This document shows positions 56,036-60,295 of a stretch of 64,000 nt of DNA, in pieces. A model generated the notes under the pieces. It was not told the DNA's origin. It was given only the letters and a program-made list of their open reading frames with translations, and did not search any database. Source of the stretch: Actinomycetota bacterium (lineage in GTDB: Bacteria > Actinomycetota > Thermoleophilia > RBG-16-64-13); assembly GCA_018830645.1 (NCBI GenBank), contig JAHJSA010000024.1:1-64000 (forward strand), given 5' to 3'. Each line of letters starts with the position of its first letter. The stretch's first letter is position 1. The translations under genes were made by a program, and so were the position numbers.

Positions 56036-56209
56036 CCCCGGCGCGCGCGCCGGCTCGGAAGCGCGGAGCAGCTTCGGCACCAATCTTGCCTGAAGCACGC
56101 GCCTCTAGCAGGTTTGGGCCTGGTGATGTAAAAGGGAACTATCGAGTGTGGACCAACGGGTCCGGACCCGGAGCACCCCGCCCCTGACGACCGAGGAGAG
56201 GTCAGCGCC

Positions 56210-56698
56210 ATGAGCGAACCGCTTCCCATCGGAGCAGCAGCCCCCGACTTCACGTTGCCCTCGCACCTCGGCGACACGGAGACGCTGTCGTCGTACCACG
56301 GTCCAACTGGCAAGAACGTGGTGCTGTTCTTCTACCCACTCGACTGGACGCCCGTCTGAGCGCGGGAGCTCCCCATCCTGCACGCGTACAGCGCTAGGAT
56401 GGCTGAGCTCGGCGCCCAGGTCTTGGGCATCAGCTGCGATTCGAACGCCTCCCACCGCGCTTTCGTCAAAGAGAGCGGAGGCCTCGACTACCCCCTGCTC
56501 AGCGACTTCTGGCCGCACGGAAGGGTCGCCCGCGAGTTCGGGGTGCTTGACGAAGAGCATGGGCGCCCGCGGCGCAGCGCCTTCGTGCTCGACCGACGTG
56601 GGGTGATCCGCTGGGCATACCACGCCGAGCTCAACGAGCAGCGCGACATCACACGCATCATCGGCGTGCTCGAAGAGCTCTGGGAGCAGGACCTCTAG
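56210..56698 (+). CDS. Peroxiredoxin (AhpC/TSA-Bcp family) with in-frame TGA at the peroxidatic position: probable selenoprotein
   Basis: One frame of 163 codons from ATG 56210 (GAGGAGAGG upstream) to TAG 56698, interrupted only by TGA at 56357-56359. Before it: GAAAPDFTLPSHLGDTETL and NVVLFFYPLDWTPV; after it: ARELPILHAY and LGISCDSNASHRAFV. In peroxiredoxins the residue after WTPV is the catalytic Cys, so TGA falls exactly on the active site at position 50. Homology continues on both sides and no cysteine codon replaces it, which supports selenocysteine over a pseudogene. Downstream AGCGC (56359-56363) can pair with GCGCT (56391-56395), a candidate SECIS stem. Reduces peroxides. No selABCD genes are in the window. 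Confidence 0.9.
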
Positions 56699-56735
56699 CC
56701 TCGCGGAGCCCCACGACCGAGGCGGTGACCGTACG

Positions 56736-56837
56736 GCGGCCGTCACCACACGGCGGCCGTCACCGAGCTGCGGCGCTCAGCGCACCGCGGCCGTCACCAC
56801 ACCGCGGCCGTCACCGAGCGGCGGCGTTCAGCGCGCC
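56736..56837. repeat. 51-base tandem duplication over the ferredoxin gene stop codon
   Basis: Units 56736-56786 and 56787-56837 share GCGGCCGTCACCACA at their start and a common tail GCGGCG.TCAGCGC, with about five differences. Each unit also holds two copies of GCGGCCGTCACC. The second unit includes the last codons and TGA of the minus-strand ferredoxin gene. The rest lies in the 129-base gap after the peroxiredoxin. Confidence 0.85.
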
Positions 56838-57670
56838 GCGGTCGCCGGACTGAGTCGCTCGCCCCCGATGCTCACCACGATCTCCTCGACAGGCACCTTG
56901 AGACCGGCGACATCCGCGGCCCGAGTGGCCAGTGCCACCAGCCCGCCGCAACACGGCACTTCCATCCTCACCACCGACACCGAGCGCGGCTGTGCGGCGT
57001 GGAAGAGCATGGCCAGCTTCTCGAGGTGCGCTTGAGCATCGTCGAGCTTCGGGCAGGCTATGACGAGGCTTCGTCCTTCGAGGAACTCCGAATGGAAGTC
57101 GCGGTAGGCGAACGGTGCGCAGTCGGCCGCGATCAGAAGGTCTGCGTTCTGGAGGAACGGAGCGTTGGGATTGACCAGACCAAGCTGGACGGGCCAATTC
57201 TGCAACAGGCTCTCCGCCGGCCTCTGGTCTGCCGAATCCGGCTGGGCGGTCGACGCCCGTGCCGAAGCCGTCTCAGGCCGGCGCATATCGCGGGCGAGTG
57301 AGCCGGGGCACCCGACGTGCGCCGCCGGAGCTTCGGCCGCCTGATGCTGAGCGGCGTGCGCCGTGTGGCCGTGCGCCGCGTGGCCGTTGCTGTGATCGTG
57401 CCCCGAAGCGGCCAACGACGGTCGTCCGAGCTCGCGCAGACGCGCTTCCACCGCGACCTCGTCGAACTCGGCCGCTTCGCGCACTTCGATGGTGAGAGCT
57501 CCCTCCGGGCATTCGCCCAGGCAGGCGCCCAGGCCGTCGCAGTAGAACTCGGCGGCAATGCGGGCTTTCCCGTCGACGATCTCAAGGGCCCCTTCGGCAC
57601 ACGCGGGCACGCACAGCCCGCACCCGTTGCAGAGGGATTCGTCGATCCTGATCATCTCTCGTGTCGCCAT
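56828..57670 (-). CDS. Ferredoxin-domain protein with His-rich linker
   Basis: A 280-residue protein. The N-terminal 55 residues carry two clusters, CNGCGLCVPACAEGALEI and CDGLGACLGECPEGALTI, the second having the altered CxxxxxC spacing common in this group. A linker near residues 87-110 is very His-rich (GHDHSNGHAAHGHTAHAAQH). The C-terminal domain (LLIAADCAPFAYRDFHSEFL, VIACPKLDDAQAHLEKLAML, MEVPCCGGLVALA) has three lone cysteines. Similar ferredoxins occur in sulfate reducers and other anaerobes; function unknown. An operator-like inverted repeat lies 77 bases upstream. Confidence 0.8.
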   Translation of the reverse strand: MATREMIRIDESLCNGCGLCVPACAEGALEIVDGKARIAAEFYCDGLGACLGECPEGALTIEVREAAEFDEVAVEARLRELGRPSLAASGHDHSNGHAAHGHTAHAAQHQAAEAPAAHVGCPGSLARDMRRPETASARASTAQPDSADQRPAESLLQNWPVQLGLVNPNAPFLQNADLLIAADCAPFAYRDFHSEFLEGRSLVIACPKLDDAQAHLEKLAMLFHAAQPRSVSVVRMEVPCCGGLVALATRAADVAGLKVPVEEIVVSIGGERLSPATAAR

Positions 57671-57894: not shown

Positions 57895-58197
57895 ATGGCA
57901 CTCACGCTACGACAAAGGACACTCCTGCACATCATCGTGCAGCGTTTCGACCGGTCTACTAACAGCACCGTGTTGGACCCAGTGTCGCTCGGCGCGGAGC
58001 TGTCGGCCGGCGGGGCAGATCTCGCCGCCGACCTTGTCGAACTAGAGCAACAGGGCTACGCGGCTCGGGTCACCGACCCGATGGCCGCCGACGCCCAGCC
58101 CGCGGACCCGGCAGCCAACTGCCCGCCCATCGAAGAGGAACGCTGGGTGGTCACACCCACGGATCGGGGCGTCATGGCGGCGATGGGCCTCGACTAG
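57895..58197 (+). CDS. Small protein of unknown function, 100 residues
   Basis: ATG with GGAGGT upstream. The N-terminus MALTLRQRTLLHIIVQRFDR and LGAELSAGGADLAADLVELE look like a winged-helix domain; the C-terminus EERWVVTPTDRGVMAAMGLD has the T-x-x-G ending typical of small winged-helix proteins. No family name. It is convergent with queE and overlaps its stop by four bases. Confidence 0.65.
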   Translation: MALTLRQRTLLHIIVQRFDRSTNSTVLDPVSLGAELSAGGADLAADLVELEQQGYAARVTDPMAADAQPADPAANCPPIEEERWVVTPTDRGVMAAMGLD

Positions 58198-58814
58198 GGG
58201 ATGCCGAGAACGCGGTGGAGTTGAATGGAAAGGCGCCACCCTGGGTGGGCCAGGACCGCGTCGGCGGCTACCTTCCCGGTCTCTGCGAGACGAGACGCCT
58301 CCGGCTGGAGACACACCGCGGCCGACGGGTGCTCTGCCGCCAACGCCTCGACCCAGGCAACCTGGAAGTCCTGATCGACCACCACCTTGAGCTCGTCTAC
58401 CATCCCACACAGGCCGCCAACGATGACGTAGTCGGGCGGCTTCGGGCTCACCGTGACCCAGTCGGGTCGGGTCGCTCCGGGAGGGGGCAGGGTGCCGTTG
58501 GTCTCGACGTGCACGAGGACCCCGGCGTCCTGCAGCCGCTCGATGAGGCGCGCAAGGTGCTCACCCTGAAGCAGAGGCTCGCCCCCCGTGAGACAGACCC
58601 GGCCCAGACCCCCACGAAGCACCCGCTCGACGATCTGAGCGGAGTCGGTCTCGACGCCGCCGTCCGCGCGCCAACTCTGCGGCGTGTCGCACCAGGCAAG
58701 GCACCCCAGGCGCAGGTCTGACGCGTTGCAGCCCGCGAAGCGCACGAAGGTCATGGCGACGCCCGCCCAGACGCCCTCCCCCTGTAGCGAGTCGAACACC
58801 TCCAGAACGCGCAC
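58194..58814 (-). CDS. queE: 7-carboxy-7-deazaguanine synthase
   Basis: A 206-residue radical SAM enzyme starting MRVLEVFDSLQGEGVWAGVA. It rearranges 6-carboxytetrahydropterin to 7-carboxy-7-deazaguanine, step 3 of the queuosine precursor route. The cluster motif is CNASDLRLGCLAWCDT, that is C-x8-C-x2-C rather than the usual C-x3-C-x2-C; the known Burkholderia enzyme has C-x14-C-x2-C, so variation here is tolerated. CLTGGEPLLQ and VETNGTLPPPG are typical. It is last in the operon queF-queC-queD-queE. Confidence 0.92.
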   Translation of the reverse strand: MRVLEVFDSLQGEGVWAGVAMTFVRFAGCNASDLRLGCLAWCDTPQSWRADGGVETDSAQIVERVLRGGLGRVCLTGGEPLLQGEHLARLIERLQDAGVLVHVETNGTLPPPGATRPDWVTVSPKPPDYVIVGGLCGMVDELKVVVDQDFQVAWVEALAAEHPSAAVCLQPEASRLAETGKVAADAVLAHPGWRLSIQLHRVLGIP

Positions 58815-58822
58815 CCAGACCC

Positions 58823-59200
58823 CTAAGTCGCAGACCCCTCAGTCGTGACGTCGGCGTAGCTCGTGGGAGTCTCCCAGAGCCGCACGCGCACCACGGGGAG
58901 ACCGGACGCCCGAAGTTCCTCGAACGCCCAAGCCGCCAGCGCCTCGGCCGTGGGCACAAAGTCGAACAGATCGTTCAGATACTGGTGATCGAGGTGGTCG
59001 ACCACCAGCTCAGCCACCCGTCCGCGAAGGTCGGCGAAATCCATGACCATGCGGTCGGTGGGGCCGCCGTCCTGCACCTGCCCCTCCACGGTCACCTCGA
59101 GCGTGTAGGTGTGGCCGTGGACGTTGCGACACTTGCCCTCGTGTTCGGGCAGACAGTGGGCGGCGTCGAAGGAGAGTATCTTCGTCACCGTGGTCTTCAC
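58823..59200 (-). CDS. queD: 6-carboxy-5,6,7,8-tetrahydropterin synthase
   Basis: A 125-residue enzyme that converts dihydroneopterin triphosphate to 6-carboxytetrahydropterin. Zinc and catalytic residues are in FDAAHCLPEHEGKCRNVHGH and the YADVTTE end. GTG 59200 lies five bases after the queC stop; a longer frame would overlap queC. The GTP cyclohydrolase step (FolE) is not encoded in the window. Confidence 0.94.
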   Translation of the reverse strand: MKTTVTKILSFDAAHCLPEHEGKCRNVHGHTYTLEVTVEGQVQDGGPTDRMVMDFADLRGRVAELVVDHLDHQYLNDLFDFVPTAEALAAWAFEELRASGLPVVRVRLWETPTSYADVTTEGSAT

Positions 59201-59204
59201 GCGG

Positions 59205-59915
59205 TCACATCCGCACCACGTAGGGTATCGGGTCTTCGGCGCCCGCCTCGCGGAAGGCTTCGACACGCGCCTGGCACGTGTCGCACACCCCACAGCCCGG
59301 CCGGCTCCCCTGATAGCACGAGAGGGTCAGCCTGTAGGGCACCTCATGATCGAGGCCCCAGCGAACCACGTCCCCCTTCGACCATTCCGCAAACGGGGCC
59401 CTGACCCGCAGACCGTATTGCGTGCCCAAGCGGACAGCCTCGTCGGCGGCCCGCACGAACTCCGGCCGACAGTCCGGGTAGCCGGTGTGATCGTCGCGAT
59501 GCACGCCGAGCCATAGGTCTGCCGGGCCGTGAGCGTCCGCGAGTGAGGCGAGAGAGGCCAGGAACAGCAGGTTGCGTGCGGGCACGTAGGTGGGCGCGAC
59601 GCCGGTCACCGTGCCGAGATCGCGCCCTTCGGGCATCGCCTGGTTGGCGTCCGTAAGCGCCGAGCCCTCGATGGTGCGCAGTTCGACGACGCGGTGCTCG
59701 AAGCCGTAATGGGCGGCCAAGGCGGCGGCCGCTTCGCACTCGACGCTGTGTTTCTGCCCGTAAAGGAAGGTGACCGCGACTACGGGCGCTCCCGGATGGG
59801 CGTGCCGCACCCAGGCCGCGAGCGTCGAGGAATCGACGCCGCCGCTCAGGAGTAGGTAATGGGAGAAAGCGGGATCCGCCGAGGAAGGCCCGAGGTTCGC
59901 GGATGACGGAGTCAC
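59205..59915 (-). CDS. queC: 7-cyano-7-deazaguanine synthase
   Basis: A 236-residue PP-loop ATPase with LLLSGGVDSSTLAAW near residue 22 and a C-terminal zinc site CYQGSRPGCGVCDTCQAR. It turns 7-carboxy-7-deazaguanine into preQ0 with ammonia and ATP. GTG 59915 overlaps the queF stop by four bases (GTGA), giving coupling. YGQKHSVECEAAAALAAHYG is a family segment. Confidence 0.95.
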   Translation of the reverse strand: MTPSSANLGPSSADPAFSHYLLLSGGVDSSTLAAWVRHAHPGAPVVAVTFLYGQKHSVECEAAAALAAHYGFEHRVVELRTIEGSALTDANQAMPEGRDLGTVTGVAPTYVPARNLLFLASLASLADAHGPADLWLGVHRDDHTGYPDCRPEFVRAADEAVRLGTQYGLRVRAPFAEWSKGDVVRWGLDHEVPYRLTLSCYQGSRPGCGVCDTCQARVEAFREAGAEDPIPYVVRM

Positions 59916-60295
59916 GCACGCTCCCCGTGTTCGGCACGGACGACGGTCTTGATGTTGCCCCGCACGTTGAAGTCGCCGGTGACTCTCATCCATCGTGGAT
60001 CGAGGAGGGCGACGAGATCGTCGAGGATCCTGTTGGTGACCGCCTCGTGCGAGATCGCCACATCACGGTAGGCATTGATGTAGAGCTTCAGCGCCTTGAG
60101 TTCTACGATGCGCTCGCGCGGCTGGTATCTGATCTTGATAGTTGCGAAATCGGGATAGCCCGACTGGGGACACACGCAGGTGAACTCCGGAACGTCCATT
60201 GACACCAGGTAGTGCCGCTCGGGGGCGGGGTTGGGCCACGCCGTGAGCTCGTTCGTCTCGATGGCGATGGCCCCGTACTTCTTCTCGGTCTCCAT
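59912..60295 (-). CDS. queF: NADPH-dependent 7-cyano-7-deazaguanine reductase (preQ0 reductase)
   Basis: A 127-residue enzyme of the T-fold, type I. The nucleophilic cysteine is in VPEFTCVCPQSGYPDFATIK and the substrate loop in VELKALKLYINAYRD. It reduces preQ0 to preQ1, so the pathway here leads to queuosine in tRNA rather than to archaeosine. It is first in queFCDE. The 130 bases upstream show no recognisable preQ1 riboswitch. Confidence 0.95.
   Translation of the reverse strand: METEKKYGAIAIETNELTAWPNPAPERHYLVSMDVPEFTCVCPQSGYPDFATIKIRYQPRERIVELKALKLYINAYRDVAISHEAVTNRILDDLVALLDPRWMRVTGDFNVRGNIKTVVRAEHGERA

Follow-up and report, generated by a model that had tools for sequence, protein, structure and literature searches.

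Known selenocysteine peroxiredoxins

Selenocysteine (Sec) peroxiredoxins are an established family, in which the AhpE-like (1-Cys) subfamily is less documented than the PrxU-like one. PrxU of Eubacterium acidaminophilum was described in 2001 (ref. 83 of PMC13188914), and comparative genomics by Zhang et al. in 2006 counted 12 Sec peroxiredoxin proteins with T/SxxU sites, one of them in Symbiobacterium, then classed as Actinobacteria (PMC1794560). The first-pass annotation of the locus reported here had correctly stated that such proteins are known in bacteria. In the passages of the 2006 study that we compared, AhpE-type proteins were not separated from other peroxiredoxins, and the members described below differ from that set in their origin from metagenome-assembled genomes (MAGs) of uncultured Actinomycetota and Chloroflexota. 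No described Sec AhpE was found in a literature search that covered mainly open-access journals.

The closest characterised cysteine counterpart was AhpE, the 1-Cys peroxiredoxin of Mycobacterium tuberculosis (Rv2238c; PDB 1xvw, 4x0x, 5id2). It shares the DFWPHG region with the protein studied here, and its peroxidatic Cys aligns with residue 50 (U50) of that protein; since this residue is Cys and not Sec, AhpE is made without UGA recoding. PrxU (NCBIfam NF040737) likewise carries Sec at the peroxidatic position of a PxxxTxxU motif and belongs to the same superfamily, but it represents another subfamily.

Gene and predicted product

The locus lies in a 64-kb stretch of DNA from an uncultured actinobacterium (hereafter the window). 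Its features are as follows.

56194–56201, + strand: Shine-Dalgarno-like AGGAGAGG, identified from the sequence 5′ of the ATG
56210–56698, + strand: coding sequence of an AhpE-type peroxiredoxin, 162 aa, with putative Sec at residue 50; TAG stop at 56696–56698
56336–56359, + strand: active-site motif P43-L-D-W-T47-P-V-U50 (PxxxTxxU)
56357–56359, + strand: inferred Sec codon, an in-frame UGA where the peroxidatic residue is encoded (Cys-or-TGA alignment column; Sec machinery of the genome)
56366–56410, + strand: bacterial SECIS-like hairpin, 17 bp, beginning 6 nt after the UGA (fold, recodings, compensatory changes)
56386–56390, + strand: apical loop, GUACA, which opens with G-U and lies 26 nt from the UGA, fitting the bSECIS model
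56573–56575, + strand: codon of the expected catalytic Arg, R122, which does not vary in the alignment
56828–57670, − strand: 4Fe-4S protein gene, convergent neighbour conserved in 5/5 nearest relatives (context, outside the selenoprotein)

The frame from the ATG at 56210 to the TAG contained the TGA as its sole internal stop and read PLDWTPV-TGA-ARELPI. The single frame, the normal TAG end and the ribosome binding site were all as first annotated, while two lengths had to be corrected. With the TGA read as a residue, the product had 162 aa and not 163, a number reached only by counting the stop codon, and the first in-frame ATG 3′ of the TGA was codon 64, which opens an open reading frame (ORF) of 99 codons and not the 100 that standard gene calling had been expected to report. 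Standard (table 11) annotation would shorten the gene of this likely antioxidant enzyme at the TGA.

Between the convergent genes, just past the end of the peroxiredoxin frame, short imperfect direct repeats with a GCGGCCGTCACC-like unit were observed at 56730–56850. A composition scan of the window for further TGA-interrupted genes returned two weak candidates; it missed the peroxiredoxin itself and was too insensitive.

Protein family and active site

Translated through the TGA, the full frame matched Pfam AhpC-TSA over residues 7–135 (E 1.5e-36). AhpE of M. tuberculosis was the top sequence match among solved structures (E 2.7e-27) and also the top structural match of the predicted fold (pLDDT 94.9), with a query-normalised TM score of 0.85–0.87 and 38% identity. 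P43, U50 and R122 were invariant in the alignment, and T47 was replaced by Ser in some rows. R122 is presumably the catalytic Arg expected of peroxiredoxins, the counterpart of R116 in M. tuberculosis AhpE; an R116A mutant occurs among the matched structures. The protein therefore combined the three hallmarks of peroxiredoxins, i.e. the fold, the PxxxT/SxxC(U) motif and the catalytic Arg. The sole other Cys, C76, was Ser in one relative (L071), so there was no conserved resolving Cys. With AhpE first by both sequence and predicted structure, and without a conserved resolving Cys, the predicted protein falls within the AhpE subfamily. Membership in the PrxU equivalog was rejected: its score was 70.6 bits where the cut-off is 270, and the match spanned only positions 37–169 of the 233 in that model. 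Anti-phage defence models gave no match to the window peroxiredoxin.

Conservation and phylogeny of the TGA codon

The claim that the TGA exactly replaces the codon of the peroxidatic Cys was borne out by the alignment, in which this column held Cys at 93 and TGA at 17 of 110 homologous loci, and no other residue or stop; the count includes duplicates, as the five nearest relatives were counted once from whole-genome hits and once from GTDB contigs. After removal of duplicates, 12 distinct TGA genes remained besides that of the window. The pattern is the one expected of a bacterial selenoprotein, an in-frame UGA at the redox-active Cys position of Cys homologs.

The five nearest relatives, all from other species of the same family and approximately 60–87% identical, carried the same TGA and formed one clade with the window gene (support 100/97). 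The convergent 4Fe-4S gene lay beside the peroxiredoxin in all five of them; queuosine genes were also shared in four, and the contig of the fifth ended too soon. In the window, this queuosine cluster (58194–60295) comprised queE, queD, queC and queF by resemblance, with the Pfam test covering only the queD-like PTPS protein. Codons 51–63 were conserved among the relatives, and in none of them were the two halves of the gene separated or differently framed. Between the window gene and that of the nearest species, dS was 0.43 and dN 0.009 before the TGA, and 0.50 and 0.11 after it; for the pair L070/L071, the dS/dN values were 0.26/0.01 and 0.41/0.07, respectively. As judged from these substitution rates, purifying selection acts on both sides of the TGA.

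Sec forms fell in three or more separate parts of the tree, namely the actinobacterial family, SAR324 and a clade of Chloroflexota whose neighbours are Cys forms from sulfate reducers. Further Sec forms were a lone Chloroflexi row (L097) and an AhpC-like protein from the same family as the window (L031). The tree does not decide between gains and losses of Sec. We give even odds to the reading that the AhpE-type 1-Cys peroxiredoxins with Sec are a distinct subfamily, not yet named, which arose or was retained independently in SAR324, in Chloroflexota and in the uncultured actinobacterial family; in this reading the SECIS keeps a distance of about 25 nt from the UGA, and its upper stem is rebuilt from genus to genus.

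Two AhpE-like loci of SAR324/Deltaproteobacteria (L086:5001-5402 and L087:4777-5178) had TGA at the same site and encoded proteins identical over the matched stretch; their downstream fold was weak (−10.5 kcal/mol over 60 bases). L031 (G003:C10:17011-17463), from another genome of the same family, encodes an AhpC/Prx1-type peroxiredoxin whose peroxidatic codon is TGA (FYPGDFTFV-TGA-PTEL), by its sequence a second Sec peroxiredoxin subfamily in the lineage of the window. Several more weak matches with TGA occurred besides L031.

SECIS-like hairpin

The 59 bases from the UGA folded into one long hairpin (−33.1 kcal/mol; z −3.4 versus dinucleotide shuffles), with the arms GAGCUC-C-CCAUCCU.../...AGGAUGG-CU-GAGCUC at 56366–56410. 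Only 1 of 500 synonymous recodings folded as well. When only 48 bases, too few to hold the full hairpin, were compared with mononucleotide shuffles, z was −0.2; the signal appeared with the whole 59–60 bases. Published limits for the bacterial SECIS (bSECIS) are a loop of 3–9 nt with G in one of the first two places, a distance of 16–37 nt from the UGA and a minimum free energy of −7.5 kcal/mol or lower (PMC13188914), and the window hairpin, with its GUACA loop and −32.9 kcal/mol, lay within them. Rfam models at gathering thresholds gave no match within the window. The first-pass annotation had proposed a stem just after the TGA; a SECIS-like hairpin does exist there, but the stem named, AGCGC/GCGCT, takes in the A of the UGA codon and is absent from the predicted fold.

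When the window and the five relatives were aligned, 85% of cells were paired in the structure of the window, with eight two-sided compensatory changes, as against at most 46% and two for slid versions of the structure on the same rows; the structure had itself been taken from one of these six rows, which are few. Both arms of the lower stem (GAGCUC/GAGCUC) specify conserved Glu-Leu pairs in preferred codons, and the invariance of this stem is therefore weak evidence for RNA structure. The upper stem differed among relatives and was rebuilt in L070/L071. The relatives kept the hairpin, and the strict loop rule held only in some of them: in L067, L068 and L069, three of the six rows, it was unmet or met only in a different fold. 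Because the structure comes from one of few rows, the lower stem is coding and the upper stem is rebuilt, a role of the hairpin as SECIS is probable but not proven.

Selenocysteine machinery of the genome

The assembly containing the window (3.87 Mb, 112 contigs, 99.8% complete) encoded a tRNA-Sec with the anticodon UCA (72.6 bits; Rfam cut-off 47). Both selA (558 bits) and selB (319 bits) were located on contig C48 and selD (402.6 bits) on another contig, all above curated cut-offs, so that the genes of a Sec host were present in one assembly. ARAGORN found no tRNA in the 64-kb window, and the tRNA-Sec therefore lies elsewhere in the genome. Sec machinery outside the window had been predicted at the outset, with genome-wide absence of selA, selB and selC named as the observation that would overturn the reading; the opposite was found. 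The selD gene (G000:C73:21163-22089, L057) had a TGA in its GSG-U-ACK active-site motif and is, as read from its sequence, a second selenoprotein gene of this genome. The genes selA, selB and selD were also present in 5/5 other species with a TGA peroxiredoxin. A genome of the same family (G009) was without selA, gave no selB or selD match above cut-off and had no TGA in its peroxiredoxins. In the window, TGA was the normal stop of 9/12 genes checked.

Alternative explanations

A Cys codon (TGC or TGT) is one base change away from TGA, and the window alone, from an assembly of 112 contigs, cannot exclude a base error. A sequencing error is nevertheless very unlikely because five relatives carry the same TGA, as do genes in Chloroflexota and SAR324. 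A pseudogene broken by a nonsense mutation also fails, because the TGA is conserved in a supported clade with shared synteny and changes are mostly synonymous on both sides; dN stays far below dS 3′ of the TGA, and all Sec genes are present. Together, error and pseudogene retain a negligible probability. We find it equally hard to credit a split into two ORFs, one for a 49-residue peptide and the other for a 99-residue protein starting at codon 64. That ATG is present and table 11 gene calling would yield this outcome, but the peroxiredoxin fold would be cut through its active site, codons 51–63 are conserved like the rest, and no relative has its halves apart.

Most bacteria show some UGA readthrough, and the codon might be read without selenium, by near-cognate suppression (insertion of Trp, Arg or Cys) or after genome-wide reassignment of UGA. 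The use of TGA as a stop in most window genes checked, a dedicated tRNA-Sec with SelA and SelB, and Cys in the same column of all other homologs make such decoding highly improbable.

Proposed decoding and significance

Our preferred reading, to which we assign a probability of about 0.96, is that this is the gene of a full-length AhpE-type (1-Cys-like) peroxiredoxin of 162 residues, with UGA codon 50 decoded as Sec. The Sec peroxiredoxin first proposed for this locus is thereby supported. We infer the insertion itself, the enzyme activity and the reductant from what is known of Sec decoding in bacteria and of the chemistry of peroxiredoxins. SelB carrying Sec-tRNA(Sec) would bind the hairpin just behind the UGA, and the complex would insert Sec in place of termination. 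In the PxxxTxxU pocket, which also holds R122, the U50 selenolate may then attack H2O2 or organic peroxides, and a cellular thiol or redoxin would reduce the selenenic acid that results.

An AhpE-type case would thus join the Sec peroxiredoxins, making Sec and Cys comparable in one scaffold, and the gene offers a test case for programs that predict SECIS elements in high-GC Actinomycetota. The actinobacterial family concerned, which is poorly known, appears to decode selenocysteine, and standard annotation would miss its full-length enzyme.
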